Assembly (NCBI GenBank): GCA_029959085.1
Contig: JARWIR010000002.1
Location: 33,691,733-33,755,732, forward strand
Length of the DNA: 64,000 nucleotides
Reading direction: 5' to 3'
Source: Nemophila menziesii
Lineage: Eukaryota > Streptophyta > Magnoliopsida > Boraginales > Hydrophyllaceae
Shown here: piece after piece, positions 1,484 to 35,241 of the stretch
Layout: each line of letters starts with the position of its first letter
How positions within the stretch are numbered: position 1 is the stretch's first letter
Program-made: the position numbers and the translations under genes
The notes under the pieces: model-generated
What the model saw: the letters and a program-made list of their open reading frames with translations, nothing else
The model's database searches: none
What the model was told of the DNA's origin: nothing

Positions 1484-3253
1484 ACTTTTAGGTTGTTTTT
1501 AATATTCTATTTTAGGATATCGTATTTTGGGTTCGTTAGGTTTTTACCAACCGTAACATTCAACCCTAATTTCTAAAATCTCTAACATTACCCTAAACTA
1601 TAAACACAAAACCTTAACCCTATAACCTACACCTAATCCATCACCATAAGCCCTAAATACTAACCATAAGCACTAACAATAAACCGTAACCAGAAACCCC
1701 AGAACCTAAACACTGAACCTTATACCCTAATCCCAAAACCTTAATCACTGAACCCTAACCATGGAAAGGATAATAACGTGAAGATTTTGGCTCATTTCTA
1801 TTATCTAAACACACTGCAAACCAGTTTTAAGATTTTTGAAGTTCCCTGGAGGATTTTCTCTACCTTTTGCATACTTTCTCAGAATAGGGCAAATAATATA
1901 TGTTTTTTGAGTGCGTTGGGCCTTCTGGGACCGAAAGATCGCTTCGCTATCTAGATCATCTGTTTTACGTTTTGAGATGTGTTTTGTTGACTTTTAGGTT
2001 GTTCTTAGTATTCTATTTTAGGATATCATATTTTGGGTCCGTTAGGTTTTTACCAAACGTAACATTCAACCCTAAATTCCAAAATCTCTAACATTATACC
2101 CTAAACCATAAACACAAAACCTTATCCCAATAACCTACAACTAACCCATCACCATAAGCCCTAAATACAAACCATAAACACTAACAATAAACCGTAACCA
2201 GAAACCCCAAACCCTAAACACTATACCCTATACCCTAATCATAAAATCTTAATCACTGAACCCTAACCATGGAAAGGATAATAACGTGAAGATTTTGGCT
2301 TGTTTCTATCATCCAAACGCTCTGCAAAACGTTTTTAAGATTTTGAACTTTCCAGTAGAATTTTCGCTAACTTTCGCATACTTTCTCAGAATTGGGAACA
2401 TAATATATGTTTTTTGAGTGCGTTGGGCCTTCTGGGACCGACATATAGCTTCTCGATCTAAGATCATTTGTTTTACATTTTGATATGTGTTTTGTTGACT
2501 TTTAGGTTGTTTATAATATTCTATCTTAGTATATCGTATTTTGGGTCTGTTAGGTTTTTACCAACAGTAACATTCAACCCTAATTTCTAAAATCTCTAAC
2601 ATTATACCCTAAACTATAAACACGAAATCTTAACCCTATAACCTACACCTAATCCATCACCATAAGCCCTAAATACTAACCATAAACACTAAAAATAAAC
2701 CGTAACCAGAAACCCCGAACCCTAAACACTAAATCCTATACTCTATATCCTAATACCAAAAACTTAATTACTGACCCTAACCATGGAAAGAATAATAACG
2801 TGAAGATTTTGGTTCATTTCTATCATCCAAATACTCTGCAAACCATTTTAAAGATTTTTGAAGTTCCTGGGAGGGTTTTTGCTAACTTTCGCCATACTTT
2901 CTCAGAATGGGGCACATAATATATGTTTTTTGAGTGTGTTGGGCCTTCAGGGACCGACATATAGCTTCTCTATCTAAGATCATTAGTTTTACGTTTTGAG
3001 ATGTGTTTTGTTGACTTTTAGGTTGTTTTTAATATTCTATTTTAGTATATCGTATTTTGGGCCCGTTAAGTTTTTATCAACCGTAACATTCAACCATTAT
3101 TTCTAAAATCTCTAACATTATACCCTAAACCATAAACACAAAACCTTAACCCCATAACCTACACCTAATCCATCACCATAAGCCCTAAATACTAACCATA
3201 AACACTAACAGTAAACCGTAACAAGAAACCCCAAACCGTAAACACTAAACCCT
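1484..3253. repeat. Satellite array, left arm segment 1 (about 3.5 monomers)
   Basis: Tandem monomers are recognised by the anchor ATGGAAAGGATAATAACGTG at 1761, 2269 and, with one base change, 2783, giving spacings of 508 and 514 bp. Each monomer has a 300-330 bp unique part (TTTCTCAGAATGGGGCACAT, TTCTGGGACCGACATATAGC) and a 170-190 bp C/A-rich part made of degenerate CCCTAAA-like units. The first copy begins abruptly inside the GTTGACTTTTAGG segment at the gag junction. No gene is present. Confidence 0.95.
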
Positions 3254-3786
3254 TATTGGTGTGGGGATTATAATGAAATTACTAAAGTTGAAGAAAGAAT
3301 GGGTTGTACTAGCCTTCATAAGAGCTCTCATGAATTTGTGGAATGTATTAATGATAATGGGATGGTGGAACATCCTAGCCAAGGGTGTTACTACACTTGG
3401 ACTAATAGAAGAATGGATGGTTTTGTATCTAGTAAAATAGATAAAATCTTCATAAATGATGCTTGGTTCACTTGTTTCAAGTCTCATTTGATGATTGAAG
3501 CTCCTGGAATTTCAGATCACTCTAATCTTATCCTCAAAATTCAGGGGAGTTTAAATGCTAAACCTTCAACTTTTAAATTTTTTAATGTTTGGATTGACCA
3601 TGATGAATTTCTGCCTTTGATTGAAAAGGTGTGGAAAGTTGAGGTCAAAGGAAGTATGATGTATAAAGTGGTGAATAAATTGAAGGAAGTAAATAAAGCT
3701 CTAAAGATTTTCAATAGGAAATATTTTCACCACTCTACATAAGAAATAATGAAGCTTAAGGAGGATCTTGAGAAGGTAGCAATTAT
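3254..3786 (+). pseudogene. LINE A1 ORF2, endonuclease C-terminal fragment
   Basis: Part of an APE-type endonuclease domain, which nicks target DNA to prime reverse transcription. The readable frame contains the conserved serine/lysine region SSKIDKIF and the active-site motif SDHS, followed by the linker KVWKVEVKGSMMYKVV leading toward the reverse transcriptase. The reading frame stops early (TAA at 3740-3742) where LINE A2 has a CAA codon. The N-terminal catalytic motifs (SWNVRG, LLETK) are missing because of 5' truncation. The fragment ends where LINE B inserted and resumes at 7747. Confidence 0.9.
3773..3786. repeat. Left target-site duplication of LINE B
   Basis: AAGGTAGCAATTAT here and AAGGTAACAATTAT at 7733-7746 differ by one base. 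The corresponding uninterrupted site in LINE A2 and A3 is AAGGTACAAATTAT. This 14-bp duplication defines the LINE B insertion precisely. Confidence 0.88.
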
Positions 3787-3968
3787 TTTTTTAGCTCGTT
3801 AAAATTACTTTTATTCAAACTCATTGAAAATACAAGCTAAAGGAATGTTAACCTTCTACCGTAGTAGCCAAAATTAACTCTCCCTATACAACTATTACAT
3901 GTAGACTAACTTGAAATAAAGTTACTACTTTCTAGTCTACTAAAAAAACATTAATCAAGGAATTACAA
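3787..3968 (-). other. LINE B 3' UTR
   Basis: Non-coding tail between the ORF2 stop and poly(A). On the minus strand it contains AATAGTTGTATAGGG, sharing GTTGTATAGGG with the repeated motif of the LINE A 3' UTR. It also contains GTAGACTAG and TAGTCTAC elements that could pair into a stem. A second copy of nearly the same tail is at 11792-12029. Confidence 0.7.
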
Positions 3969-6900
3969 TCACACTACAACTCTACTTTCTTCTAACTTCA
4001 CTTTCAAATCCCAATTTTTTATTAGCTTTTTGTTCTCTGTCGTGTTGCGTAGCTTCTCTTTGTGCCATAACCTGTTTTTTACATCATCTTTAATATCTTT
4101 GATAACCTTTTCATAGCTGAATTTTCTGCCTTCAAACACACTTTCATTTCTAGCTATCCATAGTCTATATAAATAACTATGAAAGCTAAGTATAATCACC
4201 TCATTTATGAATGTATGGCTCTTTGCTCTTTCTATCATCCAATTCAGCATTTCTATCCATTCTAAGCAATGCACATTACACTCATTCAGTTTACACCACT
4301 CTTTCCATATAGATTTAGCTAACTCAAACTTCACAAAGAGATGTTCTCTACACTCTTTCTCCTTTCCACATAAACCACATAATTCTGAAATATTCATTCC
4401 CCATTTTACCAATCTATCACTTGTAGCTAATCTATTTAGGCAAATCAACCAAGTTATAATTCTAAGCTTAGGAGTTACCTTCTTGTGCCACACTAGATCA
4501 GCCCATTCTACACTAGGGTTTTTATCTTCAATATCCATCATTGTGAGCTGAGAGTTGAAGCCTGTTTTATCTCCATTTTTCCAGCAAATTTCGTCCCTTC
4601 CTGTACTCAAAATCACCTCATTTAATTGTCCCCTTATCTCTCCATAACCTGCTGGGATTCTCCACCTACCATTACCAAAGTAAGATGCAACTTTTTTGTT
4701 CAAATTCCTCTCCCTAATCTGATTTGGGAAGAGTTCATTGATACTCAAATTATTTAACCATCTATCTTCAACAAAATAGGTTCCATTACCATCCTTCACA
4801 TGATGAACTATGAATTTGTAAGCTAAATTTCTGACTTTTAACATACATCTCCATACCCAAGGCATATGAGGATTATATTTTATCCCCCAAATACATTTAC
4901 CTCTACTCCAATTAGCTTTTACCCATTGGGACCACACATTGTCTTCCATTCCGTACATTCTCCAAAAAGACTTTAGAATACAAGTTTGATTGATAATTCT
5001 CAAACTAGGTATACCAAGTCCTCCCTCTTCTTTAGGCCTACACACTTTATTCCAAGCAACTTTAGCTCCATTAGGTGAATCTGAATAAACTTTCCAAAGA
5101 AATCTTGATATTTTACGCTTTATTATGTGAACAACTTTGGCTGGCAAAAACATACTATTACACCAATATCTCACTTTGCTTTGGAGAACACTCTTGATAC
5201 GGTGAGCTCTCCCAGCATATGTAAGATGTTTATGCATCCATCCCTCCATTGAACTACATATTTTGTCCACCAAAACTTCACAATCACCTGCCTTTGGTTT
5301 ACTTGGAGTAAGAGGTGTCCCCAAGTATCTCACAGGCAGTTTCCCTTCTTTCACATCCAAGATCTTACAAATGTCTTTCTTAATCTGATTTGTCAATCCT
5401 AGGCAATATATTTCACTTTTTTCTGGACTCAATTGAAGACCAGAAAGTCTAGAAAAAATACATAACCCCTTTTTAAGTCTCCTGGCCGAGTTAATATCTC
5501 CTCCAAAAAATAGCAAACAATCATCAGCAAATATTAGGTGGTTGAGCTTTAACCTTTCACATTGAGGGTGAAAAACAAAGCTCTTTTGACTTTCTACTTG
5601 CTTCATGATTGCTGAAAAAGCTTCCATACATATGACAAATAGGTATGGAGAAATAGGATCTCCTTGCCTCAATCCTCTACCTCCCTTGAAATAACATGTT
5701 ACTTCACCATTAATACACAAAGAATATGATGGAGTAGTTATACACATTTCCACCCGATCCACAAACACATCCTTGAAACCCAAAGCTAACAACATATTCT
5801 TCACAAACATCCATTTAACTGTGTCATAAGCTTTCTGTAAATCAAGATTGAGAGTACAAGAAGGTTTACCTCTTTTTTGTCATAACCATCCACTACACTT
5901 TGTGCCACTAGTACATTGTCTGAAATACAACTTCCTCCCACAAATGCAGCTTGATTTGATGATATAATAGTTGATAGGCACTTCTTCATTCTATTAGCCA
6001 AAAGTTTTGAAATTCCTTTGTATAATATATTGCAACAAGCAATATGCCTAAACTGTTTCAATGTTCTTGGTACTTAACTTTAGGAATTAACACAAGATTA
6101 GTTGAATTTACTTGTCTTAATAGCCTTATGTTCTTCAACACATACTTGATTGCAACACACACATCATCTCCTACAATGTCCCAAGCTGCCTTATAGAAAG
6201 CACTAGTGAATCCATCAGGCCCAGGAGCTTTATTATCATCAATTGAAAATATAGCTTCTTTTATCTCCTTGTTTTGTACTTCCTCTATCATATTCATAGC
6301 TTCTCTTCCATCGATCTCTTTGTTGAGTAGTCTTTTCAAACCATCCACTGAAATTTCTTCCACTGGATCCTTTTGTTCTCCTAATAATTTTTTGTAATAC
6401 TCAACAAAACCTTCCTTTATCTTCTCTTCATTTTCTGATATTACTCCGTCCTCCATCATAAGTGATGAAACTCGGTTTCCAACTGATTTTGCTTTAATAT
6501 ATTGATGATAAAATCTAGATCCCACATCACTCTCTTTATCCCATTGAATTCTGGATTTCTGTTTTAAAAATTCTTGCTCGTTCTCCAAGATGTTTCTGAA
6601 TTGTTCCATGACCTCTTTTTCCTTTTCTAGTTGACTTAAATCGCCATTCAAGCTTTTGGATTGTAGTTCATCCAATTCTTTCTTCACTCTCTCTTTATCT
6701 TGATTTGTATGCCCAAAGAACTTTCGGTTAAATATCTTTAGCTCCTTCTTGACTTCTTTAAGCTTTGACACCACTTGATACATAGGCGATCCTTCCACAT
6801 AAATACTCCAAGCTTTCATTACAGTTGGTTTGAATTCCTTGTGAGCAATCCATATATTATAAAATTTGAAGGTAGTAGGTCCTCGTTTGTATCCTCCTTG

Positions 6901-7595
6901 GATGTTTATAAGTAGAGGAGAGTGATCTGAAATACCTGGAGAATCAACCACCACACTAGAAACAAAGTTAGAAAACCAAGACGTGTTTGCAAACACTCTA
7001 TCAATTCTGCTAGAAGTAAATCCAACACTTTGTTTATTACTCCAAGTGTGTATACATCCTGAACTTTGATGTTCCATAATCTCCACATCATTTATACATT
7101 CTTCAAAAGCATAAGCACAAGCTTGTAATACCTCACACCCCAATCTATCCTCACAAGCTAAAATATCATTGAATTCCCCACTAACTACCCATGGAACATT
7201 TCCCACTATAATTTTCCATCCCCTAAGTGTTTCCCAAAGTCCTAACCTCATATTATCATCATTTTCAGCATATATAGAAGACACAAAAAACATACTATCT
7301 ATCCCAACCTCTTTTACTTCACACAAAATTGCTTGTGAAGTCATACTCACACACTTGACACTAACTCTATTTTGATCCCACCTAACACAAATTCTACCCC
7401 TCTCATCTTTCTCATGATTGGTAATAGAATCCCAACTCACTAAATGATACTCACAAAACCTATTAAAACTAACTCTACGCATTTTTGTTTCCAATAAACC
7501 CACTAAACTAATTTTTTTGTTTCTTATATAACTTTCAACTTCTTTTTTTTATAGGCCTTATTTAGGCCTCTCACATTCCAAGAGCTTATCAACAT
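3969..7595 (-). pseudogene. LINE B ORF2: endonuclease / reverse transcriptase / zf-RVT
   Basis: ORF2 starts at ATG 7595 (M-L-I-S-S-W-N-V-R-G), overlapping the ORF1 stop by 7 nt. Endonuclease motifs are LLETK, SGEFND (usual form GDFN) and SDHS. The reverse transcriptase shows NKAPGPDGF, GGRGLRQGDP and the catalytic LIFADDC near 5520-5540. The C-terminal zf-RVT region has WLICLNRLATSDRL and CGLCGKEKECREHLF; the next usual Cys appears as Phe (FVKF). Three frame breaks interrupt it: an A-run near 7545, a 1-nt shift near 6070 and an A-run near 5880. From about 5880 to the stop at 3969 the frame is open, over 600 codons. Frame breaks at A-runs could be real mutations or assembly errors, so the element may be closer to intact than it appears. 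Confidence 0.9.
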
Positions 7596-7732
7596 CTATC
7601 AGGAGGATCATTAATATGCTCCTCTGAATTGGAGCCCATGAAACTAGACAAAGCTTGCTCTAAATTGTTGTTTGCAATATTTAAAGGAGTAAATGGATTA
7701 GTAGATACAATAACCTGATTTTTTGGTGAATC
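7589..7732 (-). pseudogene. LINE B ORF1, C-terminal remnant
   Basis: About 46 codons read on the minus strand and end at TGA 7589-7591 (final residues INDPPDRC). The remnant resembles the C-terminal end of LINE A ORF1, which also has a LEQAL/LEEAL segment and a final acidic/proline tail (PPDLNDN). The domain part of ORF1 is lost to 5' truncation at 7732. The stop overlaps the ORF2 start in ATGTTGA, the same arrangement as in LINE A. Confidence 0.75.
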
Positions 7733-7746
7733 AAGGTAACAATTAT
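7733..7746. repeat. Right target-site duplication of LINE B
   Basis: AAGGTAACAATTAT, paired with 3773-3786 with one mismatch. LINE A1 sequence resumes immediately after it. Confidence 0.88.
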
Positions 7747-10444
7747 GCTTATGAATGGTTGTCAATCTATGCTTTCCATTGAGAAGGAGCTTAGGGACAA
7801 GCTTATGCATCTTCTTAATATTCAAGAGGAGGTTTTAAAGCAAAAATCTGGGATTACTTGGGCTCAAAAGGGTGATTGTAGTACTACCCTTTATCATTAG
7901 AGCATCAAGGCTAGAATTACTCAAAACCGAGTTGCCTCTATTGTGACTGAAAATGGTGATATTGTTGTTGAAGATGAGGCTATTCATGATGAATTTATTA
8001 AGTACTACACTAGTATAATTTGTACTAAGGATGTTTATGAAGAAAATGTTAGATCTAGTTGCTTAAAAAAGCTTGTTGATAAAGCTATTACTAATGAAGA
8101 AGCTAATGAAATGGTGAAAGACATTACTAGTAAGGAGATTAAAGAAGCTATTTTTTCTTTAGATATCTCAAAGGCTCCTGGCCCAGATGGTTTTAATAGT
8201 GCTTTCTTCAAAGCTACTTGGAATATTATTGGGGAGGATGTTTGTAATGCTATAAAGGAAACTTTCAAGAATAGACAAATCTTGAAGCAAATTAATGATA
8301 CTAATCTTGTTCTTATTCCTAAGGTTAAAAACCCCACTTCAGTGAAGAGTTTTAGGCCCATTGCTTGTTGTAATATCCTTTACAAAGCTATATATAAAAT
8401 CATTGCTAATAGGATGAAGAAAAGTCTTGAGGAACTTATATCTAAAAATCAAGCTACTTTTGTGGGAGGAAGAAGTATTTTTTGATAATATATTGGTTGC
8501 TCAAAGTGTGGTGGTAGGTTATGATAGAAAGGATTTGAGTCCAAGGTGTACTTTAAATATTGATCTTCAAAAGGCATTTGATACAATTAATTGGAGGTAC
8601 CTTATTCAACTGCTTCACATTATGGGATTTCATGATAAGTTTATCTCTTGGATCAAGATGTGTATTTCTACACCTATGTTCCCTAAGTGTATTAATGGGA
8701 GTGTGCGTGGTTCTTTCAAAGGAGAAAGAGGATTAAGACAAGGTGATCCTTTATCTCCTTATCTATTTGGTGTATGTATGCAAGGTTTCTCTTCTATTCT
8801 TGAGAAAGTGGCACATAATAAAGCTTTTACTTATCACCCTAATTGTGCTAGAATGGATTTGAACCATGTTATATTTGTTGATGATTGTTTAGTATTCTTT
8901 AATGGTGATAAGGACTCGGCCATGAGACTAAAACAAGGCCTTGATCTCTTCTCTAGACTTTCTGGCATTAAAATAAGTCCTGAAAAGAGTGAGCTATATA
9001 TGGGAGGTTGTAACAAGGACCTTCACGATGATTTAGTAGTATTATCAATGTTAAGAAGGGTAAACTTCCTGTTAGATATCTTGGGGTTCCTTTAACTACA
9101 AAGGGTCCTAATAATTTAATGTGTGCTACCCTTATTAATAATATAGTTGGAAGTGTTGAAGGGTGGATGCATAGAGTCCTTACATTTGCAGGAAGGCTTC
9201 ATTTAATCAAGAGTGTTTTGCAAAGTAAAGCTAGATATTGGTTTAATGTAATGATTCTTCCAATGGGAGTTATTCATGAGATAGAATCACTCTTGAGTAG
9301 ATTTCTTTGGAAGGGTAATACTAATGACTTTCATGGAGCTAAAGTGGCTTGGAAAGAGTTATGTCAAAGCAAAGAAATATTAGGACTAGGCATACCTAAT
9401 CTTCTCCAAATAAATCAAGTTGCTATTCTTAAAGCTTTTTGGAGAATGTATGGTTATAAAGATAATATTTGATCTCAATGGGTCTACTCAAATTGGCTAA
9501 GGAATAAGAGTATATGGAGCATTACATATGATAGTAAACTTCCTTGGACATGGAGAGCTATGCTTAATGTGAGGTACCTTGCTTTTAAATAAATTATACA
9601 TATGATGTTGGAAATGGAGAGAGAACATATATGTTAAATGCTAGATAGATAAAGGGAAAGTGTGTTGGTGATATTTGTGAACATAAAGATGTTATTTCTT
9701 TAGGGAATTACAATATTAACAAAAAGGTGATGGATTATTATATTGGGAAGAGGTGGAGATTTACACCTAGGCTCAACAAGGTGTATGAGGTGGTAAAGGA
9801 TATGATGCTTAATAAAGAAAATGACACTATAAGATGGGGAGATAAAGGTTTTAAGGCCTCAGATGTTATGTTGACCTAAGGGGTCCTAATGAGAAAACAA
9901 ATGGTATAGTGTGGTGTGGCATAAATGGAGTATGCCAAAGCACAAGTTTTGTGCTTGGTTAATTTGTAAGGATATATTAAGCACTAAAGATAGGCTTAGT
10001 AAGTGGGGAATGGAAGTGGACAAGTTGTGCTACCTTTGCTTTGAAGAACATGAATCTAGAGATCACCTATTTGTGAATTGCATATTTACTACTTTGGCTT
10101 GGAAGGAGATTTGTGCTCTTCATAATTGGCACAACTCGGATAATACTTGGGAGGAAAGACTTGATTTTATGCTTAAGTTTGATGGTAACACCTAAAAAGA
10201 TACCATATCAAACATTACATTTCTTAGCTTTCTTTATTGTATTTGGGATATGAGGAATAAAAAGGACTTTAAAAAGATGCACCCTAAATATGAGGATATT
10301 GTGAAAATAGTTGTGAAAGATGTTTAATACACACTTTGGAATAGAAAGTTATTTAAAAGGAGTGTTGAGAATATGAGATTGGTGGAAAGATGGGAGCTAC
10401 ATGGAGTACTCAAGGGAGGTGAGCAAGAAGAAAAAGGAAGCTAG
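7747..10444 (+). pseudogene. LINE A1 ORF2, reverse transcriptase and C-terminal part
   Basis: Continuation of ORF2 after the nested LINE B. It holds the linker, the reverse transcriptase (APGPDGFNSAFFKATW, FRPIACCNILYKA, GERGLRQGDPLSPYL) and the C-terminal zf-RVT region (CAWLICKDILSTKDRL, CYLCFEEHESRDHLF, then CIFTTLAW). The catalytic motif reads FVDD in place of FADD near 8874-8884. Several defects break it: an in-frame TAG near 7900, an insertion in a T-run near 8478, a frameshift near 9035, a stop at 9472 and further breaks before 9911. The normal end corresponds to the TAG at 10442-10444. This copy is inactive. Confidence 0.9.
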
Positions 10445-10713
10445 CTTGGAGCTTGGACCTAGTAATAGATATTAGCAATTGTTGTATAGGGTTAAATATC
10501 CTAGCAATGGTTGTATAGGGTGCTCTTACGTTGATTTATTTTTTTCTAGCAATGGTTGTATAGGTTGTTTGAAAGTTGATAGGTTTACTTTCCTAGTAAA
10601 TGTTGTATAGGGTTTGTTTTTCCTAGCCATGCTTGTTTTTGAGTCAAAAACAAGTAGGGGTTTGATTTGTACTTGTCATTTTGCGGATATAAAATGGTAG
10701 GTTTGATAAAAAA
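10445..10713 (+). other. LINE A1 3' UTR with repeated motif, hairpin and poly(A)
   Basis: Four degenerate copies of CTAGCAATGGTTGTATAGGG follow one another at 30-45 bp spacing between about 10470 and 10605, followed by a partial copy (CTAGCCATGCTTG). The partial copy leads into a hairpin at 10632-10654 (CTTGTTTTT / AAAAACAAG around GAGTC). The tail is GGTAGGTTTGATAAAAAAAAA. The same layout recurs in LINE A2 and A3. Confidence 0.8.
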
Positions 10714-12937
10714 AAACACTAAACCCTATACCCTAATCCCAAAACCTTAATTACTGAACCCTAACCATGGAAAGGATAATAACGTGAAGATTTTGGCTCG
10801 TTTCTATCATCCAAACCCTCTGCAAACTGTTTTTAAGATTTTTGAAGTTCCCGGGAGGATTTTTGCTAACTTTCGCATAGAATGGGGCACATAATATATG
10901 TTTTTGAGTGCGTTGGGTCTTCTAGGACCGACATATAGCTTCTCCATCTAAGATCATTTGTTTTATGTTTTAAGATGTGTTTTGTTGACTTTTAGGTTGT
11001 TTTTAATATTCTATTTTAGTATATCGTATTTTGGGTCCGTTAGGTTTTTACCAACCGTAACATTCAACCCTAATTTCTAAAATCTCTAACATTATACCCT
11101 AAACTATAAACACAAAACCTTAACCCTATAACCTACACCTAATCCATCACCATAAGCCCTAAATACTAACCATAAACACTAACAATAACCGTAACCAGAA
11201 ACCCCAAACCCTAAACACTAAACCCTATACCCTAATCCCAAAACCTTATTTACTGAACCCTAACCATGGATAACGTGAATATTTGGGCTCGTTTCTATCA
11301 TCCAAACCCTCTGCAAATCGTTTTTAAGATTTTTGAAGTTCCCGGGAGGATTTTTGCTAATTTTCGCATACTTTCTCAGAATGGGGCACATAATATATGT
11401 TTTTTGAGTGCGTGGGCCTTTTGGGACCGACATATAGCTTCTCCATCTAAGATCATTTTTTTAACGTTTTGAGATGTGTTTTGTTGACTTTTAGGTTGTT
11501 TTTAATATTCTATTTAGTATATCGTATTTTGGGTCCGTTAGGTTTATACCAACCGTGACATTCAACCCTAATTTCTAAAATCTCTAACATTATACCCTAA
11601 ACTATAAACACAAAACCTTAACCCTATAACCTACACCTAATCCATCACCATAAGCCCTAAATACTAACCATCAACACCAACAATAAACTGTAACCAAAAA
11701 CCCCAAACCCTAAACACTAAACCCTATACCATAATCCCAAAACCTTAATCAATGAACCCTCTGCAAACCGTTTTTAAGCTTTTTGAAGTTCTTTTTTTTA
11801 GCATGTTAAAATTACTTTTATTCAAACTCATTGAAAATACAAGCTAAAGGAATGTTAACCTTCTACCGTAGTAGCCAAGATTCACTCTCCCTATACAACT
11901 ATTACATGTAAACTAACTTGAAATAAAGTTACTACTTTCTAGTCTACTAAAAAACATTAAAAAAGGAATTACAATCACAATACAACTCTACTTTCTTCTA
12001 ACTTCACTTTCAAATCCCAATTTTTTATTAGCTTTTTGAAGTTCCCGGGAGAATTTTCGCTAACTTTTGCATACTTCTCTAAATGGTGCACATAATATAT
12101 GTTTTTTGAGTGCGCTGGGCCTTCTGGGACAGACATATAGGTTCTCCATCTAAGATCATTTAATTTACGTTTTGAAATGTGTTTTGTTGACTTTTAGGTT
12201 GTTTTTAATATTCTATTTTAGAATATCGTATTTTGGGTCTGTTAGGTTTTTACCAACCGTAACATTCGACCCTAAATTCTAAAATCTCTAACATTATACC
12301 CTAAACCATAAACACAAAACCTTAACCCAATAACCTACACCTAATCCATCACCATAAGCCCTAAATACTAACCGTAAACACTAACAATAAACCGTAACCA
12401 GAAACCCCAAACCCTAAACACTAAATCCTATACCCTAATCCCAAAACCTTAATCACTGAACCCTAACCATGGAAAGGATAATAACGTGAAGATTTTGGCT
12501 CGTTTCTATCTTCCAAACCCTCTGCAAAACGTTTTTAAGATTTTTGAAGTTCCTGGGAGGATTTTTCCTAACTTTCGCATACTTTATCAGAATGGGGCAC
12601 ATAATATATGTTTTTTGAGTACGTTGGGCCTTCTGGGACCGACATATAGCTTCTCTATCTAAGATCATTTGTTTTACATTTTGAGATGTGTTTTGTTGAC
12701 TTTTAGGTTGTTTTTAATATTCTATTTTAGTATATCGTATTTTGGGTCCGTTAAGTTTTTACCAACCGTAACATTCAACCCTAATTTCTAAAATCTCTAA
12801 CATTATACCCTAAACTATAAACACAAAATCTTAACCCTATAACCTACACCAAATCCATCACCATAAGCCCTAAATACTAACCATAAACACTAACAATAAA
12901 CCGTAACCAGAAACCTCAAACCCTAAACACTAAACCC
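10714..12937. repeat. Satellite array, left arm segment 2 (about 4 monomers)
   Basis: Monomer anchors occur at 10766, 11266 and 12469. One monomer is damaged: at about 11753 it jumps from GAACCCT straight to CTGCAAACCG, losing about 65 bp of the usual sequence. The same monomer carries the LINE B tail at 11792-12029. No gene is present; the short open frames here are satellite sequence. Confidence 0.93.
11792..12029 (-). mobile_element. LINE B 3' tail, severely 5'-truncated insertion
   Basis: Closely matches the LINE B 3' UTR and the last ORF2 codons (compare 3787-4034), with the poly(A) as a T-run at 11792. It is flanked by AGCTTTTTGAAGTTC at 11777-11791 and 12030-12044. The right junction is ambiguous because LINE B itself contains AGCTTTTTG at the truncation point, so 9 bp of microhomology join element and target. 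Confidence 0.85.
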
Positions 12938-12987
12938 CATTGCTCCTCCTTCTCTCCTCTTTCTCTCTCTAGGTATTGAAGTTTTAG

Positions 12988-15792: not shown

Positions 15793-15852
15793 ACACATTT
15801 CTCCTCCTTCTCTCTACTATCTCTCACTAGGGTTTGAAGATTTAGCCAAAGT

Positions 15853-22007: not shown

Positions 22008-22012
22008 GCTTC
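22008..22012. repeat. Right 5-bp target-site duplication of the solo LTR
   Basis: GCTTC, identical to 20434-20438. Confidence 0.95.
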
Positions 22013-23523: not shown

Positions 23524-26510
23524 AAGCACTAAACCCCATACCTTAATCCTAAAACCTTCATCACTGAACCCTAACCACGGATAGGATAATAACGTGAAGA
23601 TTTTGGCTTGATTTTATCATCCAAACCCTCTGCAAATCGTTTTTAAGATTTTTGAAGTTCCCAGGAGGATTTTTGCTAACTTTCGCATACTTTCTCGGAA
23701 TAGGGCACATAATATATGTTTTTGAGTGTGTTGGGCCTTTTGGGACCGACATATAGCTTCTCCATCTAAGATCATTTGTTTTACGTTTTGAGATGTGTTT
23801 TGTTGACTTTTAGGTTGTTTATAGTATTCTATTTTAGTATATCGTATTTTGGGTCCGTTATGTTTTTACCAACTGTAAAATTCAACCCTAATTTCTAAAT
23901 TATCTAACATTATACCCTAAACTATAAACAAAAAACATTAAACCTATAACCTACACCTAATCCATCACCATATGCCCTAAATACAAACCATAAACACTAA
24001 CAATAAACCGTAACCAGAAACCCCAAACCCTAAACAGTAAACCCTATACCCTAATCCCAAAACCTTAATCACTGAACCCTAACCATGGAAAGGATAATAA
24101 CGTGAAGATTTGGGCTCGTTTCTATCATCCATACCCTCTGCAAACCGTTTTTAAGATTTTTGAACGTCCTAGGAGGATTTTTGCTAACTTTCACATACTT
24201 TCTCAGAATGGGGCACATAATATATGTTTTTTGAGTGCGTCGGGCCTTCTGGGTCCGACATATAGCTTCTCCATCTAAGATAATTTGTTTTACGTTTTGA
24301 GATGTGTTTTGTTGACTTTTAGGTTGTTTTTAATATTCTATTTTAGTATATCTTATTTTGGGGCCGTTAGGTTTTTACCAACTGTAACATTCAACACTAA
24401 TTTCTAAAATCTCTAACATTACACCCTAAACTATAAACACAAAACCTTAACCCTATAACCTACACCTAATCTATCACAATAAGCCCTAAATACTAACCAT
24501 AAACACTAACAATAAACCGTAACCAGAAACCCCAAACCCTGAACACTAAACCCTATACCCTAATCACAAATACTTAATCACTGAACCCTAACCATGGAAA
24601 GGATAATAACGTGAAGATTTTGGATCGTTTCTATCATCCAAAACCTCTGCAAACCGTTTTTAAGATTTTTGAAGTTCCCAGGAGGATTTTGCTAACTTTC
24701 GCATAATTTCTCAGAATGGTGCACATAATATATGTTTTTGAGTGCGTTGGGCGTTCTATGACCGACATATAGCTTCTCCATGTAAGATCATTTGTTTTAC
24801 GTTTTGAGATGTGTTTTGTTGACTTTTAGGTTGTTTTTAATATTCTATTTTAGTATATCGTATTTTGGGTTCGTTAGGTTTTTACCAACCGTAAATTTCA
24901 ACCCTAATTTCTAAAATCTCTAACATTATAACCTAAACTATAAACACAAAACCTTAACCCTTTAACCTACGCCTAATCAATAACCATAAACACTAACAAT
25001 ACACCGTAACCAGAAACCCCAAACCCTAAACACTAAACCCTTTACCCTAATCCCAAAACCTTAATCACTGAACACGAACCATGGAAAGGATAACAACGTT
25101 AAGATTTTGGCTCGTTTCTATAATCCAAACCCTCTGCAAACCGTTTTACGATTTTTGAAGTTCCCAGGAGGATTTTTGTTAACTTTCGCATACTTTCTCA
25201 GAATGGGGCACATAATATATATTTTTGAGTGCGTTGTGCCTTCTATGACCGACATATAGCTTCATCATCTAAGATCATTTGTTTTACGTTCTGAGATGTG
25301 TTTTGTTGACTTTTAGGTTGCTTTTAATATTGTATTTTAGTATATCGTATTTTGGGTCCGTTAGGTTTTTACCAACCGTAACATCTACCATAATTTCTAA
25401 AATCTCTAGCATTTTATACCATATAAACACAAAACCTTAACCCTATAACCTACACCTAATCTCCATCACCATAAGCCCTAAATACTAACCATAAACGCTA
25501 ACAATAAACCGTAACCAGAAACACCAAACCCTAAACACTAAACCCTATACCATATACCCTAATACCATAACCTTAATCACTGAACCCTAACTACGGAAAG
25601 GATAATAACGTGAAGATTTTGGCTCGTTTCTATTATTTAAACACTCTGCAAACCGTTTTTAAGATTTTTGAAGTTCCCTGGAGGATTTTTGCTAACTTTT
25701 GCATATTTTCTCATAATAGGGCACAATATATATGTTTTTTGAGTGCGTTGGGCCTTTTGGAACCGAAAGATCACTTCACCATCTAGATCATCTGTTTTAC
25801 GTTTTGAGATGTGTTTTGTTGACTTTTAGGTTGTTTTTAATATTCAATTTTAGGATATCGTATTTTGGGTCCGTTAGGTTTTTACCAACCGTAACATTCG
25901 ACCCTAAACTAAAATCTCTAACATTATACCCTAAACCATAAACACAAAACCTTAACCCAATAAACTACACCTAATCCATCACCATAAGCCTGCCATGGAA
26001 AGGATAATAACGTGAAGATTTTGGCTTGTTTCTATCATCCAAACCCTCTGCAAAACGTTTTTATGATTTTTGAAGTTCCCAGGAGGAGTTTTGCTAACTT
26101 TCGCATACTTTCTCAGAAGGGGGCACATAATATATGTTTTTTGAGTACGTTGGGCCTTCTGGGTCCGACAAATAGCTTCTCCATCTAAGATAATTTGTTT
26201 TACATTTTGAGATGTGTTTTGGTAACTTTTAGGTTGTTTTTAATATTCTATTTTAGTATATCGTATTTTGGGCCAGTTAGGCTTTTACCAACCGTAACAT
26301 TCAACCCTAATTTCTAAAATCTCTAACATTATACCTTAAACTATAAACACAATCTTAACCCTATAACCTACACAAAATCCATCACCATAAGCCCTAAATA
26401 CTAACCATAAACACTAACAATAAACCGTAACCAGAAACCTCAAAACCTAAACACTAAACCCAAACCCTAAACACTAAACCCTAAACACAGAGACACTAAA
26501 CGCTAAACCC
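23524..26510. repeat. Satellite array, left arm segment 3 (about 6 monomers)
   Basis: Six diverged monomers of about 500-510 bp, with the anchor ATGGAAAGGATAA and its variants near 24084, 24594, 25080, 25593 and 25994. The monomer ending near 25990 is shortened: it jumps from CATAAGCC to TGCCATGGAAAGG, losing most of the telomere-like tract. The last 55 bp before LINE A3 are an expanded run of CCCTAAACACTAAA-like units. No gene is present. Confidence 0.93.
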
Positions 26511-26562
26511 CACACATTGCTCCTCCTTCTCTCCTCTTTCTCTCTCTAGGGTTTGAAGTTTT

Positions 26563-26689
26563 AGTCAAAGTTTGACTATGCTTTGACTCCCGTTGACCAA
26601 AGTTGACCCATCACCATCACCGATGACTCGGCGATGCTATGGTTGGAGTTTGATCGGAGATTGACTGGAGGTTTGACCTCAGTTTGACT
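26563..26689 (+). promoter_or_regulatory. W-box cluster in the LINE A3 leader
   Basis: Seven direct TTGAC[C/T] cores plus one inverted GTCAA in about 127 bp, just downstream of a pyrimidine-rich tract at 26519-26548. The layout matches the ORF1-only element and LINE A2. Confidence 0.5.
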
Positions 26690-27145
26690 GAAGTTGAAAA
26701 ATTTTCATATCCTAAATTTTAATTTTCTTTGGTTTTAATTTCATTTGGTTTGATTTGATTTGGAGTTTGGAAATTAATTCAAGGTCGAGATAGTGGAAAT
26801 CTGAGTAGGATTGGTTTGTCGGCTGTGTGAAGGTGAGGAAGGTGAGTGTGAGATACGCGCTGTGTAGATTGGGTGTGGTTTTGACGCGGAGACAGGTTTT
26901 AATTTCCGATTTAATTGGAAAGCTGTGTTTGGAAAGTTGCGTTTGATTAAGTAATAATTAGGTAATAACGGCGTATCAGCATTAAATTTCGCATTAGAAT
27001 CAACAAATAATTCCGTGCAAAATCAACTCCGAATTTTGTGCTTTTATTTTGCGAATTAAATTCGATTTTCTGGGTTTCTTGCTGATTTCTTCACCGTTTT
27101 CAGTAATTCTTTTTTTGCTGAGCTTCTTTTTTCAAGTCTGATCCA

Positions 27146-28818
27146 ATGGCGCCGAGGAAGAAAGCTGATAATAAGGAGAACAAGGGTAGTGCTGAAACAA
27201 AGGAGGTTGGAACGAAAATAATGCCTATAAAAGGTAAATACGTACCTGCAACTCCCGTGATTCAAGTTAGCAATAACTTTTCTGCTGCAAAACGCATTAA
27301 TTTGATGAACAAAAGTGCTGAGGAGTGTGTGGAGTATGATTCTAGTATGAAGGATAGTGATTCAAGGAGTGTGGACAACCTATTCGATGAAAGTTCCAAG
27401 AGAGGAACAGAAACTGTAGTAGCTGATTTAACCTTACTTAGCTCCAATGAAAGCATCCAAGCTACTCAAATCATTGATTGTACAATGGTTGAGGGGATGA
27501 ATGGACAAGATGGGGCCCTAATTGAGGGTGAGGCTCCTAATTCCCTCGAGAATAGCTTGAATGTGAGTCACAAGGAGGATTACTCTACTTTAGGTGCAGG
27601 AATGGGAGGAATTTCTCCACCTAGTGAAAGTACCCTCTTGGGAGTAGCACAAGGTCAAGGTGTGGAGGATGAGGATGAATATGAGGTAGAAATTATTGAG
27701 GAAAAAAGTGGGAAGTAAGTGGACATAATTATTCAAGAAGAGTGATCAAGAGTTGAAGCTAAAATACTTTGCTCCTAGTCAAGTAGAAGATGAGCTCATG
27801 GTTAAACCACCTAGAGATATAGTGAAGAGTGGGATAATTGCTTAGTTGGACAATTCTTTAGAGAAGCTCCTGAATATCACATGGTTAGAAGCATGGTTAA
27901 TTCTCAATGGAGAAATTGTGGTAAAGTGGAGATCAAGTCTACTGATAATGGAAGTGTTTCTATTCAAATTCCAAGGTGAGCAAGAATGTAACAACATACT
28001 AGTGAAAGTTTGGCATGTTATATGTAGGATTATGATATTGAGAAAGTAGGAACCTAACATGAAGTTTGATAAGCTTGATTTGACTAAGGTTCCACTATGG
28101 GTGAAGTTGAGAAAGGTACCATTACAATTGTGGACTAATGATGGGTTAAGCTATATATGTAGTGCTTTGGGTATCCCAATCCAAATAGACCCTATTACTA
28201 AGACAAAAAATAGGCTAAGCTTTGCTAAAGTGTGTGTAGAAGTTAATATGACAAAGGAGCTTGTTAAAAGGGTGAAGGTTGATGTTGAGGAGGATGGGAT
28301 TCATGTGGTGGAGGCTTACTATGAGTGGTTACCTCCAAGATGCTCTAATTGCAAGGCTTTGGGGCATAAGGAGATTAATTGTAGTCAAGGAAGGAAAGAA
28401 CCTAGACCTAAACCAAACAAAACCTATAACCAACCTATACCAAACCAAGTTAACCACCAACCTAAGCCAAACCAAGCTAATCACCAACCAAACCAAAACA
28501 AAGTTCAAAAGAGGGTTGAAGAATGGAGGGTAGTCCAAAGAAAAAAAAAAGAGAAGAAGGATGATGAAGTTCAGATTCCTAACACCAAAAACACAACTAC
28601 AACTCCATCTCAAAGTGTGGGAAGTAGTAGTGCAAAGGGGAAAGAAAACCCCTAGTACACCTAGAGAAAGTGCTTACAATTCTAATATTTTTGAAGGGGA
28701 GTTAAGTAACTCCTTTTGTGCTTTAAATATGGCTAATGAAAACATTGAAGAGGCTTTGAATAGGTTTGTGGGAAGTACCCATAGTGAAGGAGAACCTCCT
28801 GATTTAAATGATAATTAG
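27146..28818 (+). pseudogene. LINE A3 ORF1 protein (DUF4283 + CCHC knuckle), frameshifted
   Basis: Starts M-A-P-R-K-K-A-D-N at 27146. The N-terminal part is open to 27718, where a small deletion after GKSGK-like sequence shifts the frame. Further breaks lie near 27830-28050. The DUF4283 core and the complete zinc knuckle CSNCKALGHKEINC are readable from 28059, then an Asn/Gln/Pro-rich basic region, another shift near 28650, and the tail ending PPDLNDN at TAG 28816-28818. This stop overlaps the ORF2 ATG at 28808. It shows what the native ORF1 end looks like in this family. Confidence 0.85.
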
Positions 28819-31800
28819 CTCTTGGAATGTAAGAGGTTTAAATCTAAGCCTCAAACAAAAAGAAGCTATTCATGTTATACAAGATAAAAAAGTTGATCTA
28901 GTTGGTTTATTGGAGACTAAAATGACTCTACAAAGCTACAATAATTTCACAATACTTATTTGAGTAATTAGGGTACTATAACTAATCATGATAAGGATGA
29001 TAGGGGAAGAATATGTATAAAGTGGAATAAGAATGTTTTGGATGTAAAGTGTCTTGATTCAACTAGCCAAGCCATCTTCCTTGAGGTACATGATATATAT
29101 AATAAGAAAACATTTAATTGTGTGATCGTATATGCAGATAATGATGAGGATAAAAGGGTTATTCTATGGGAAACACTTTGTGAATGGATAGTTAATAATG
29201 GGGACTCTCCATGTATTTGGTGTGCGGATTATAATGAAATTACTAAATTTGAGAAAAGAATGGGTTGTACTAGTCTTCATAAGAGCTCTCATGAATTTGT
29301 GGAATGTATTAATGATAATGGGATGGTGGAACATCCTAGCCAAGGGTGTTGCTACACTTGGACTAATAGAAGAATATATGGGTTTGTATCTAGTAAAATT
29401 GATAAAATATTTATAAATGATGCTTGGTTCACTTGCTTCAAGTCTCATTTGATGATTGAAGCTCCTGGAATTTCAGATCACTCTAATCTTATTCTCAAAA
29501 TTCAGGGGAGTTCAAATACTAAACCTTCAACTTTTAAATTTTTTAATGTCTGGACTGACCATGATGAATTTCTGCCTTTGATTGAAAAGGTGTGGAAAGT
29601 TGAGGTCAAAGGAAGTATGATGTATAAAGTGTTGAATAAATTGAAGGAAGTAAAGAAAGCTCTCAAGATTTTTAATAGGAAATACTTTCATCACTCAACA
29701 CAAGAAATAATGAAGCTTGAAGAGGAGCTTGAGAAGGTACAAATTATGCTTATGAATGGAGATAATTCTATGCTTTCCATTGAGAAGGAGCTTAGGGACA
29801 AACTTATGCATCTTCTTAATATTCAAGAGGAGATTTTAAAGCAAAAATATGGAATTACTTGGTGAGAAGGGTGATTGTAGCACTACCCTTTATCATAAGA
29901 GCATCAAGGCTAGAATCACACAAAACCGAGTTGCCTCTATTGTGACTGAAAATGGTGATATTGTTGTTGAAGATGAGGCTATTCATGATGAATTTATCAA
30001 GTACTACACTAGTTTGATTGGTACTAAGGATGTTTTTGAAGAAAGTGATAGCTCTAGTTGTTTATATAAGCTTGTTGATAAAGCTATTACTAAAGAAGAA
30101 GCAAAAGAAATGGTGAAAGACATTACTAGTAAGGAGATTAAAGAAGCTATTTTCTCTATTGATATCTCAAAAGCTCCTGGCTCAGACGGTTAGTGCTTTC
30201 TTTAAAGCTACTTGGAATATTATTGGGGAGGATGTTTGTAATGCTATAAAGGAAACTTTCAAGAATAGACAAATCTTGAAGCAAATTAATGCTACTAATC
30301 TTGTTCTTATTCCCAAGGTTAAAAATCCCACTTCAGTAAAGAGTTTTAGGCCCATTGCTTGTTGTAATATCCTTTATAAAGCTACATCTAAAGTCATTGC
30401 TAATAGGATGAAGAAAAGCCTTGAGGAGCTTAAATCTAAAAATCAAGCTTCTTTTGTGGGAGGAAGAAGTATTTCTGATAATATATTGGTTGCTCAAAGT
30501 GTGGTGGCAGGTTATGATAGAAAGGACTTGAGTCCATGGTGTACTTTAAATATTGATCTTCAAAAGGCTTTTGATACAATTAATTGGAGGTACCTTATTC
30601 AACTACTTCAAATTATGGGATTTAATAGAAAGTTTATATCTTGGATCAAGATGTGTATTGCAACACCTATGTTCTCTTTGTGCATTAATGGAAGTGTGTG
30701 TGGTTATTTCAAAGGAGAAAGAGGATTAAGACAAGGTGATCCTTTATCTCCTTATCTATTTGTTGTATGTATGCAAGGTTTCTCTTCTATTCTTGAGAAA
30801 GTGGCACATAATAAAGCTTTTACTTATCACCCTAATTGTGCTAGAATGGATTTGAACCATCTTATATTTGCTGATGATTGTTTAGTTTTCTTTAATGGTG
30901 ATAAGGACTCGGCTAAGAGACTTAAACAAGGCTTTGATCTCTTCTCTAGACTTTCTGACCCTAAAATAAGTCCTGAAACGAGTGAGCTATATATGGGAGG
31001 TTGTAACAAAGATCTTCATGATGATTTGAGTAGTATTCTCAATGTTAAGAAGGGTAAACTTCCCGTTAGATATCTTGGGGCACCTTTAACTACAAAAGTC
31101 CCTAATAGTTTAATGTGTGCTACCCTTATTAATAATATAGTTGGAAGCGTTGAAGGGTGGATGCATAGATTTCTTACATTTGCAGGAAGGCTTCACTTAA
31201 TCAAGAGTGTTTTGCAAAGTAAAGCTAGATATTGGTGTAATGCAATGATTCTTCCAATGGGAGTTATTCATGAGATAGAATCACTCTTGAGTAGGTTTCT
31301 CTGGAAGGGTAATACTAATGATTTTCATGGTGCTAAAAAGGCTTGGAAAGAGTTATGTCATAGTAAAGAAAATGGAGGACTAGGCATACCTAATCTTCTC
31401 CAAATAAATCAAGTTGCTATTCTTAAAGCTTTTTTGGAGAATGTATGGTTATAAAGATAATATTTGGTCTCAATTGGTCTACTCAAATTGGCTAAGGAAT
31501 AAGATTATATGGATCATTAAATATGATAGTAAACTTCCTTGGACATGGAGAGCTATGCTTAATATGAGGTACCTTGCTTTTAAATATATTATACATGATA
31601 TTGGAAATGGAGAAAGAACATATATGTTAAATGATAGATGGATAAAGGGAAAGTGTGTTGGTAATATTTGTGAACAAAAGGATGCTATTTCTTTGGGTAA
31701 TTACAATATTAACAAAAAGGTGATGGATTATTACATTGGGAAGAGGTGGAGATTTCCACCTAGGCTCAATAAGGTGTATGAGGTGGTAAATGATATGGTG

Positions 31801-32420
31801 CTTAGTGATGAAAATGATACTATAAGAGGGGGAGATAAAGGCTTTAGGACCTCAGATGTTATGTATGACCTAAGGGGTCCTAATGAGAAAACAAAATGGT
31901 ATAGTGTGGTGTGGCATAAATGGAGTATACCAAAGCACAAATTTTGTGCTTGGTTAATTTGTAAAGATAGATTAAGAACTAAAGACAGGCTTAGCAATTG
32001 GGGAATGGAAGTAGACAAGTTGTGCTACCTTTGCTTTGAAGAACATGAATCTAGAGACCGATCACCTATTTGTGAATTGCAAATTTACTACTTTGGGTTG
32101 GAAGGAAATTTGTGCTCTTCATAATTGGCACAACTCGGGAAATTTGTGATTTTATGCTTAAATTTGATTGTAACACCTTAAAAGATACCATATCAAACCT
32201 TACTTTTCTTTATTGTATTTGGGATGTGAGGAATAAAAAGGAGTTTAAGAATATACATACTAAATATGTGGATATTGTGAAAATAGTTGTGAAAGATGTT
32301 CAATACACACTTTGGAATAGGAAATTATTTAAAAGGAGTGTTGAGAATATGAGATTGGTGGCAAGATGGAAGCTACATGGAGTACTCAAGGGAGGAGAGC
32401 AAGAAGAACAAGGAAGATAG
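28808..32420 (+). pseudogene. LINE A3 ORF2: endonuclease / reverse transcriptase / zf-RVT, broken
   Basis: Starts at ATG 28808 (M-I-I-S-S-W-N-V-R-G), overlapping ORF1 by 11 nt. The endonuclease has LLETK, ADYNEI and an intact SDHS. A 1-nt loss near 28950 and a TGG-to-TAG change near 28970 break the N-terminal part. A deletion near 29864 removes AQK; a 7-nt loss near 30188 disrupts PGPDGF. The reverse transcriptase then reads for 431 codons, with GERGLRQGDPLSPYL and catalytic FADD at 30867-30878. One extra T near 31435 and a short insertion near 32060 in the zf-RVT region (CYLCFEEHESRD) break the end. The stop is TAG at 32418-32420. The gene is inactive, but it has the least damaged LINE A reverse transcriptase here. 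Confidence 0.9.
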
Positions 32421-32685
32421 CTTGGAGCTTGGACCTAGTAATAGATTTTAGCAATGGTTGTATAGGGTTTAATTTCCTAGCAATGGTTGTATAGGGTGCT
32501 CTTTATTTTGATTCATTTTTCTAGCAATGGTTGTATAGGTTGTTTGCAAGTTGATAGGTTTAAATTCCTAGTAAATGTTGTATAGGGTTTGTTTTTCCTA
32601 GTCATGCTTGTTTTTTAGTCAAAAACAAGTAGGGGTTTGATTTGTACTTGTCATTTTGTGGATATAAAATGGTAGGTTTGATAAA
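32421..32685 (+). other. LINE A3 3' UTR
   Basis: Four CTAGCAATGGTTGTATAGGG-like units, a hairpin at 32607-32629 (CTTGTTTTT / AAAAACAAG, loop TAGTC) and poly(A). The hairpin stem is identical to that in LINE A1 and A2. Confidence 0.8.
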
Positions 32686-34749
32686 AAACACTAAAAGCTA
32701 TACCCTATACCCTAATACCAAAACCATAATCACTGAAACCTAACCATGGAAAGGATAATAACTTGAAGATTTTGGCTCGTTTTATCATCAAAACACTCTG
32801 CAAACTTTTTTTAAGATTTTTGAAGTTCCCGGGAGGGTTTTGCTAACTTTCGCCATACTTTCTCAGAATGGGGCACATAATATATGTTTTTTGAGTGTGT
32901 TGGGACTTCTGGGACCGACATATAGCTTCTCTATCTAAGTTACATTGTTTTTCCTTTTGAGATGTGTTTTGTTGAATTTTAGGTTTTTATTATATTCTAT
33001 TTTAGTATATCGTATTTTGGGTCCATTAGGTTTTTACCAACCGTAACATTCAACCCTAAATTCTAAAAATCTCTAACATTATAGCCTAAACCATAAACAC
33101 AAAACCTTAACCCCATAACCTACACCTAATCCATCACCATAAACCCTAAATACTAACCATAAACACTAACAATAAACCGTAACCAGAAACCCCAAACCCT
33201 AAACATTAAACCCTATACTCTAATCCCAAAACCTTAATCACTGAACCCTAACCATGGAAAGGATAATAACGTGAAGATTTGGACTCTTTTCTATCATCCA
33301 AACCTCTGCAAACCGTTTTTAAGATATTTGAAGCTCCCGGGAGGATTTTTGCTAACTTTCGCATACTTTCTCAGAATTGGGCACATAATATATATTTTTT
33401 GAGTGTGTTGGGCCTTCTGGGACCGACATATAGCTTCTCCATCTAAGATCATTTGTTTTACGTTTTGAGATGTGTTTTGTTGACTTTACCCATGTTGTTT
33501 TTAATATTCTACTTTAGTATATCGTATTTCGGGTCCGTTAGGTTTTTACCAACCGTAAAATTCAACCCTAATTTCTAAAATCTCTAACATTATACCCTAA
33601 ACTATAAACACAAAACCTTAACCTTATAACCTACACCTAATCCATCACCATAAGCCCTAAATACTAACCATAAACACTAACAATAAACCGTAACCAGAAA
33701 CCCCAAACCCTAAACACTAAACCCTATACCCTGATTCCAAAACCTTAATCACTGAACTCTAACCATGGAAAGGATAATAATGTGAAGATTTGGGCTCGTT
33801 TCTATCATCCAAACCTCTGTAAACCGTTTTTAAGATTTTTGAAGTTCTCGGGAGGATTTTTGCTAACTTTCGCATACTTTCTCAGAATGGGGCACATAAT
33901 ATATGTTTTTTGAGTGCGTTGGGCCTTCTGGGACCGACATATAGCTTCTCCATCTAAGATAATTTTTTTAACGTTTTGAGATGTGTTTTGTTGACTTTTA
34001 GGTTGTTTTTCCTATTCTATTTTACTATATCGTATTTTGGGTCCGTTAGATTTTTACCAACCGTAACATTCAACCCTAATTTCTAGAATCTCTAACATTA
34101 TACCCTAAATTATAAACACAAAATCTTAACCCTATAACCTACACCAAATCCATCACCATAAGCCCTAAATACTAACCATAAACACTAATTATAAACCGTA
34201 ACCAGAAACCTCAAACCCTAAACATTAAACCCTATACCCTACACCCTAATACCAAAACCTTAATCACTGAACCCTAACCATGGAAAGGATAATAACGTGA
34301 AGATTTTGGCTCGTTTCTATCATCCAAACACTCTGCAAACCGTTTTAAAGATTTTTAAAGTTCCCGGGAGGATTTTTGCTAATTTTGGCATACTTTCTCA
34401 GAATGGGGCACATAATATATGTTTTTTGAGTGCGTCGGGCCTTCTGGGTCCGACATATAGCTTATCCATCTAAGATCATTTGTTTTACGTTTTTGAGATG
34501 TGTTTTGTTGACTTTTAGCTTGTTTTTCATATTCTATTTTCGTATATCGTATTTTGGGTCCGTTAGGTTTTTACCAACCGTAACATTCAACCCTAATTTC
34601 TAATATCTCTATCATTATACCCTAAACTATAAACACAAAATCTTAACCCTATAACCTACACCAAATCCATCACCATAAGCCCTAAATACTAAACATAAAC
34701 ACTAACAATAAACCGTAACCAGAAACCTCAAACCCTAAACATTAAACCC
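32686..34749. repeat. Satellite array, left arm segment 4 (about 4 monomers)
   Basis: Four monomers of about 510 bp with anchors near 32746, 33256, 33765 and 34278. From LINE A3's right flank to the SINE's left duplication is 2,051 bp, close to four monomers, so the insertion points are in the same phase. No gene is present. Confidence 0.94.
34737..34749. repeat. Left target-site duplication of the SINE
   Basis: AAACATTAAACCC, repeated exactly at 34979-34991. It is the satellite position used by the LINE A insertions, in a monomer carrying CATT for CACT. Confidence 0.92.
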
Positions 34750-34756
34750 GGTGAGC

Positions 34757-34768
34757 TAGCTCATATGG
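34757..34768 (+). promoter_or_regulatory. SINE A box (RNA polymerase III)
   Basis: TAGCTCATATGG resembles the tRNA A-box consensus TRGCNNAGNNGG, with one deviation. It lies 31 bp upstream of the B box, a normal spacing. Confidence 0.75.
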
Positions 34769-34799
34769 CCAGGGCTCTGTCTCTCAAGTGAAAGTGCAT

Positions 34800-34810
34800 G
34801 GTTCGAATCC
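34800..34810 (+). promoter_or_regulatory. SINE B box (RNA polymerase III)
   Basis: GGTTCGAATCC is a perfect match to the tRNA B-box consensus GGTTCGANNCC. Confidence 0.85.
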
Positions 34811-34978
34811 CGCAGGTGGAAGAAAGTTATTAATGTTTGGAAAGTTTCCAAAGGTTCGAAACCCTCCCCAGAACATGGGAAACCTAGTTTTGACTTGCCT
34901 GGAGGTATGGTTGGGGAGGCAGTCATGTCTCCCGTAGTATTAGTCGGGTGTAAGCTCGGAACCCTCCTACGAAAAAAA

Positions 34979-35241
34979 AAACATTAAACCCTACACCCTA
35001 ATACCAAAACTTTAATCACTGAACCCTAACAATGGAAAGGATAATAACGTGAAGATTTTAGCTCGTTTCTATCATCCAAACTCTCTGCAAACCGTTTTTA
35101 AGATTTTTGAAGTTCCCGGGAGGAGTTTTGCTAACTTTTGCCATACTTTCTCAGAATGGGGGCACATAACCTATGTTTTTTAAGTGCGTTGGGCCTTCTG
35201 GGACCGACATATAGCTTCTCTATCTAAGATCATCTGTTTTA
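34979..35241. repeat. Satellite, last half-monomer of the left arm
   Basis: Continues the left-arm monomer after the SINE and stops at GATCATCTGTTTTAC, where the array polarity reverses. Confidence 0.92.

Follow-up and report, generated by a model that had tools for sequence, protein, structure and literature searches.

Long and short retroelements share an insertion site in a telomere-like satellite of Nemophila menziesii

Some long interspersed nuclear elements (LINEs) select their insertion sites, and four reports are relevant to the locus described below. The L1-CS LINEs of Cuscuta europaea, the closest precedent, are reported to prefer two adjacent sites in the satellite CUS-TR24, with the target motifs TTCTA and TTTCAA (PMC8091179), and so the targeting of satellite sites by a plant L1 is already known. 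The Celine LINEs of poplar target centromeres; their copies have individual 10-30 bp duplications, and the 5' nick is biased to AAGA/AATA while the 3' junction shows no bias (PMC11288735). In the silkworm, the TRAS1 endonuclease cuts T-A and C-T junctions (PMC2868851), and telomere-associated elements are rare in plants according to a review (PMC12477314). Here we describe a stretch of 64,000 nucleotides from Nemophila menziesii contig JARWIR010000002.1 (the window, to which alone all counts and probabilities refer). In it, three copies of a LINE that we call LINE A (A1, A2 and A3), an element related to it that has only open reading frame 1 (ORF1), and a short interspersed nuclear element (SINE) are inserted at a common site of a telomere-like satellite (Table 1).

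The satellite accounts for about 38 kb of the window in an nhmmer map, and its consensus monomer of 509 bp is composed of degenerate plant-telomere-like units. Two perfect CCCTAAA units stand in tandem at just three places in the 64 kb, and three in tandem do not occur anywhere in the window. With fewer than three consecutive perfect units, this is not the true telomere array by which TRAS and SART targets are defined, and the insertion target is a telomere-like satellite instead. A scan for gaps of more than 15 bp between satellite pieces found six interruptions in the whole array, leaving out of the count a gypsy-like remnant (1-1450) that is situated at the array edge. Five of the six are the LINE A copies, the ORF1-only derivative and the SINE, and the sixth is a fragment of a different family, LINE B. 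All five elements have the same orientation and lie at the junction of consensus monomer positions 509 and 1.

We looked for target-site duplications by varying where each copy starts and ends. They are 13-14 bp long in four of the five insertions; the best reading for A3 is 18 bp, and it sits in a locally expanded stretch of heptamers. The left duplication copy has AAACCC directly before the element in every case (5/5), and the satellite to the right of the insertions restarts with TAT, TAC or CAT. The predicted first nick falls at T^A in all but A3, where the left flank is GAG, and the predicted second cut at C^T in four of the five, A1 being included provided that its ambiguous T is not counted and A2 being the exception, since its host reads C^C. 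The left flank of A1 is CCGT instead of CCCT. The right edge of A3, CCC^TAT, is the same as in the others, whereas its first nick can be placed only to within a few bases. In the SINE duplication, AAACATTAAACCC, there is a variant T that is also present in some neighbouring monomers and at its own host site, as expected if a duplication copies its own target. Units of 7 bp resembling telomere repeats are locally expanded directly 5' of A3 (26435-26510) and of A2 (15760-15792).

The first-pass annotation of this DNA had placed all five insertions at one nucleotide in one orientation. The orientation and the position hold, the latter exactly for four insertions and within a few bases for A3. Its duplication coordinates likewise agree with ours except for A3, where they match at just 10 of 13 positions and the longer reading in Table 1 is better. 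A first nick at TTT^AGGG, also proposed there, would suit most of the sites but not A3. The near-whole-monomer spacing between insertions is real, but it follows from the fact that they share one site and adds no further evidence.

How selective the choice of site has been can be judged from the consensus monomer, which has 14 TTT^A sites on its two strands together, 2 TTTTAA, 3 TTTAGGG and 3 GTGTTTA. Only one of the 14 TTT^A sites, or of the three TTTAGGG sites, has been used, so that the earlier remark that other CCCTAAA sites of the monomer stay empty agrees with the count. The combination of GTGTTT with AGGG is found at the used site only. The chance that all five insertions would fall on one site is 2.6e-5 over the 14 TTT^A sites, or 0.005 if only the three kinds of element are counted.

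We consider it likely, with a probability of roughly 0.7, that these five elements of three kinds came to one site through a single L1-type LINE A, whose predicted endonuclease would favour GTGTTT^AGGG and which would also have inserted its derivative and the SINE in trans. The endonuclease would nick the G-rich strand at TTT^AGGG, and the three T of the freed ...GTGTTT end would pair with the A-tail of the element and prime reverse transcription. The opposite strand would be cut at CCC^TAT, 13 bases off, giving a duplication of nearly fixed length. The ORF1-only derivative and the SINE both lack ORF2, and presumably they borrow the LINE A machinery, which would account for unrelated elements at one site. 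A more ambitious idea, less likely than not, is that a plant L1 convergently gained a TRAS-like specificity for the telomere motif and inhabits a satellite of telomere origin, where its own ORF1-only derivative and a SINE parasitise it, in which case a LINE and its partner SINE could be matched by target site alone.

The proteins of LINE A fit an element of this type. The L1-type reverse transcriptase (RT) proposed earlier is supported by the RT of A3, for which human L1 ORF2p is the highest-scoring solved match (117 bits). Outside the L1 type, the top score is 67 bits, for a 'reverse transcriptase-like protein', and named R2 proteins reach 56 bits at most. None of the ten solved RT matches is a chain labelled R1, TRAS or SART, and hence they give no direct contrast with those groups. 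A3 carries the domains RVT_1 (1e-35) and zf-RVT (1.5e-16), and among the best 120 of 3385 RT relatives those bearing organism names are from plants. DUF4283, which we take to be a marker of plant L1 ORF1, is present in ORF1 of A2 (3e-33) and of the ORF1-only element (6e-34). Identity to the matches listed is at most 47% for the RT, 36% for ORF1 and 32% for gag. A target-site duplication and an A-tail are present, as expected of a plant L1-clade LINE. The motifs WNVRG, LLETK and SDH, presumably those of an APE-type endonuclease, were seen in LINE A pieces. As first annotated, A1 is 5'-truncated and the other two copies extend to the 5' end; however, neither of the latter is full-length in the sense of being intact, because their frames are broken and a solo long terminal repeat (LTR) splits A2.

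Several smaller features of LINE A were also recorded. Its 3' untranslated region (10480-10625, 23275-23435 and 32440-32595) contains a motif resembling CAATGGTTGTATAGGGT several times over, of which the ORF1-only element retains one copy, as judged by eye. At 28790-28830, there seems to be an overlap of a few bases between the ORF1 stop and the ORF2 start. A2 has a different codon in the place of the ORF1 stop, and the reading frame continues.

The ORF1-only element resembles LINE A over the 5' untranslated region and ORF1, and again, close to its 3' end, along a stretch of about 78 bp. The SINE was scanned with a consensus of the RNA polymerase III boxes. Its B box is perfect (0 of 1000 shuffles were as good), and its A-box-like motif is weak, with two mismatches that were equalled in 383 of 1000 shuffles. 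As to a tRNA relation, ARAGORN gave no hits in the window, and a run of Rfam over 34700-35020, with E values of up to 10 allowed, yielded no tRNA and one chance-level match to PreQ1. For plant SINEs with plain A-tails, the mobilising LINE is hard to assign.

The five insertions look independent, judging from their sequences. The opposite notion, that a single ancestral insertion was copied by amplification of the satellite, is very improbable. It draws on the divergence of the LINE A ORF2 pieces: the copies are about 89-94% identical (they differ by about 6-11%), close to the mean identity of the monomers of the + half (0.916), and so this identity alone would leave duplication possible. However, the differences over three ORF2 stretches, counted at first, second and third codon positions, are 34/45/76 for A1-A3 (P 1e-4), 54/43/124 for A2-A3 (P 4e-12) and 45/35/90 for A1-A2 (P 3e-7), and this third-position excess indicates that the lineages of the copies were coding while they diverged. 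The effect is weakest between A2 and the ORF1-only element, for which the ORF1 counts are 77/78/110 (P=0.02). In windows of 200 columns, A2 and A3 are far more diverged in the first kilobase (0.58-0.80 identical) than downstream (0.85-0.93). Nor are the host flanks related: the monomers to the right of the insertions have an identity of 0.909 and those to the left 0.924, against 0.916 for random sets of four, and a fraction of 0.67 (right) and 0.25 (left) of such sets are equally alike. The sets of four were all those that can be drawn from the 15 full + monomers, and on either side a full monomer was available for four of the five hosts. In addition, the 5' truncation of A1 coincides exactly with its duplication, A1 holds LINE B1 and A2 holds the solo LTR, neither nested insertion being common to the copies, and there are three kinds of element. 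On the strength of the third-position excess, the diverged first kilobase and the unrelated flanks, one event that was multiplied is rejected; the first-pass annotation had also held simple duplication to be inadequate, and the differing 5' ends and element kinds add to that.

Two other explanations accept independence. One is an ordinary L1 endonuclease with a general TTTT^AA-like preference, for which the site would be just the most accessible T-rich one, for example in a nucleosome linker. This is unlikely, although it deserves some weight: the usual L1 motif is compatible with TTT^A, the Cuscuta sites are also TTTTAA-like (PMC8091179), and monomer-start sites are filled only in the + half of the array (5/18 vs 0/55 in the inverted half, P=6e-4), so that context matters. 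Yet, of the 2 TTTTAA and 14 TTT^A sites of the consensus monomer, just one has been used, and the second cut is nearly fixed as well, as the duplication lengths attest. There is also an internal control, since LINE B2, from a different LINE family, is inserted in the same array at a different site (n=1). The other explanation, that the LINEs are targeted and the SINE reached the site by coincidence through the machinery of another LINE, is improbable; LINE B is in the window too, and the 3' end of the SINE has no similarity past the A-tail to LINE A, but the site, orientation and 13-bp duplication of the SINE are identical to those of LINE A, and the sole LINE B insertion in the satellite is elsewhere.

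Several observations nevertheless weigh against a site-selective LINE A that serves all three kinds of element. Over the three TTTAGGG sites, the chance of five out of five at one site is 0.012, a weak bias, and for three kinds of element it is 0.11; all of these site probabilities are after-the-fact figures for five events. The confinement of filled sites to the + half implies that the motif is not all that matters and that, for example, chromatin or the age of the array plays a part; the empty sites of the inverted half might reflect its recent amplification, given that pairwise monomer identity there is as high as 0.998. The A3 junction is inexact, with GAG in the place of CCCT, and A1 (CCGT) and A2 (C^C) deviate as described above. 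The Pfam endonuclease domain Exo_endo_phos scored 18.3 bits on a LINE A piece, under the cut-off of 24.5, and a solved-structure search with two endonuclease pieces gave nothing significant (E=0.28 for an exodeoxyribonuclease; E values of 0.02-0.9 for unrelated proteins). Every LINE A copy in the window is broken and none has an intact endonuclease. Finally, the 3' end of the SINE resembles neither LINE A nor the ORF1-only element nor LINE B beyond the A-tail, and therefore its link to LINE A rests on the common site.

Table 1. Coordinates of the satellite, the inserted elements and their target-site duplications in the window
Feature	Position	Strand	Description
A1 left duplication	3240..3253	+	AAACACTAAACCC(T); 14 bp perfect, 13 without the ambiguous T
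A1 right duplication	10714..10727	+	14 bp perfect
ORF1-only element left duplication	12925..12937	+	13 bp perfect
ORF1-only element right duplication	15265..15277	+	13 bp perfect
A2 left duplication	15780..15792	+	13 bp, 1 mismatch; a 10-bp perfect core scores equally
A2 right duplication	23524..23536	+	13 bp, 1 mismatch
A3 left duplication	26493..26510	+	best reading 18 bp, 16/18 matching
A3 right duplication	32688..32705	+	best reading 18 bp, 2 mismatches
SINE left duplication	34737..34749	+	AAACATTAAACCC; 13 bp perfect
SINE right duplication	34979..34991	+	13 bp perfect
LINE A1	3254..10713	+	5'-truncated within endonuclease; interrupted by LINE B1
LINE A2	15793..23523	+	reaches 5' end; ORF1 open 16385-18124; ORF2 broken; solo LTR inside
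LINE A3	26511..32687	+	reaches 5' end; ORFs broken; RT in 30159-31454, zf-RVT in 31414-32124
ORF1-only derivative	12938..15264	+	open stretch 13538-14554, DUF4283, no ORF2, A-tail
SINE	34750..34978	+	B-box-like motif 34800, A-box-like motif 34757, A-tail
Satellite, + half	1451..35243	+	21 pieces totalling 9446 bp, with six insertions (nhmmer map)
Satellite, inverted half	35246..64000	-	60 pieces, 28683 bp, zero interruptions >15 bp
Six gaps in satellite	3238-10714; 11786-12023; 12924-15265; 15771-23524; 26448-32697; 34736-34979		gap scan
LINE B1	3787..7732	-	nested in A1; duplication 3773-3786/7733-7746, 14 bp, 1 mismatch
LINE B2	11792..12029	-	238-bp 3' fragment in satellite; duplication 11777-11791/12030-12044, 15 bp perfect
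Solo LTR	20439-22007		inside LINE A2; 5-bp duplication GCTTC

The rest of the window displays some patterns of its own. The satellite switches its orientation at 35243-35246. In the inverted half, the pairwise identity of monomers reaches 0.998, similar blocks recur, e.g., around 38522, 42623 and 45715, and a 60-bp internal duplication is found at three spots (38609-38736, 42710-42837 and 45790-45929). The window begins with a Ty3/gypsy-like remnant with gag (544-1491), and 284 bp of the solo LTR are 88% identical to its edge.

LINE A and the Cuscuta L1-CS elements are alike in being of a plant L1 lineage and in recurring, as heterogeneous copies, at preferred positions of a satellite monomer, and the mapped 5' and 3' end positions of L1-CS are offset by about 13-16 bp. 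They differ in that L1-CS uses TTCTA/TTTCAA at two adjacent sites and the elements described here one TTT^AGGG site, and in that a SINE and an ORF1-only derivative share the latter; the terms 'SINE' and 'non-autonomous' are absent from the main text of PMC8091179. The earlier statement that it would be unusual for a plant L1-type LINE to home to such a satellite has therefore to be softened, and what differs here is the single telomere-type motif that is common to a LINE, a SINE and an ORF1-only derivative. Celine, another plant LINE, shows strong regional targeting, but no fixed satellite site is described in the cited portion of PMC11288735.

The putative likeness to TRAS1 concerns the T-A and C-T junctions known from the silkworm work, each of which is predicted here for four of the five insertions; unlike LINE A, which has an L1-like RT and is found in a satellite, TRAS1 targets true telomere arrays. 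TRAS1 belongs to the R1 clade. LINE A would thus work like TRAS at the predicted junctions, which does not imply membership in that group. In mammals, L1 moves both HAL1 (half-L1), an ORF1-only derivative, and the SINE Alu by way of the A-tail, and so there, too, one L1 serves an ORF1-only derivative and a SINE, to our knowledge without a comparable site specificity. Among the matches listed in a search by title and the start of the abstract, which covered mainly literature outside subscription journals, there was no report of a SINE that shares a satellite site with a LINE.

In conclusion, a sharply defined common target would pair a SINE with its LINE. If LINE A is indeed site-selective, then TRAS is not alone in cutting a telomere motif and an L1 endonuclease can acquire this ability too, and the locus would be a compact model both of the way in which such an endonuclease becomes specific and of the shelter that heterochromatic satellites give to retroelements.
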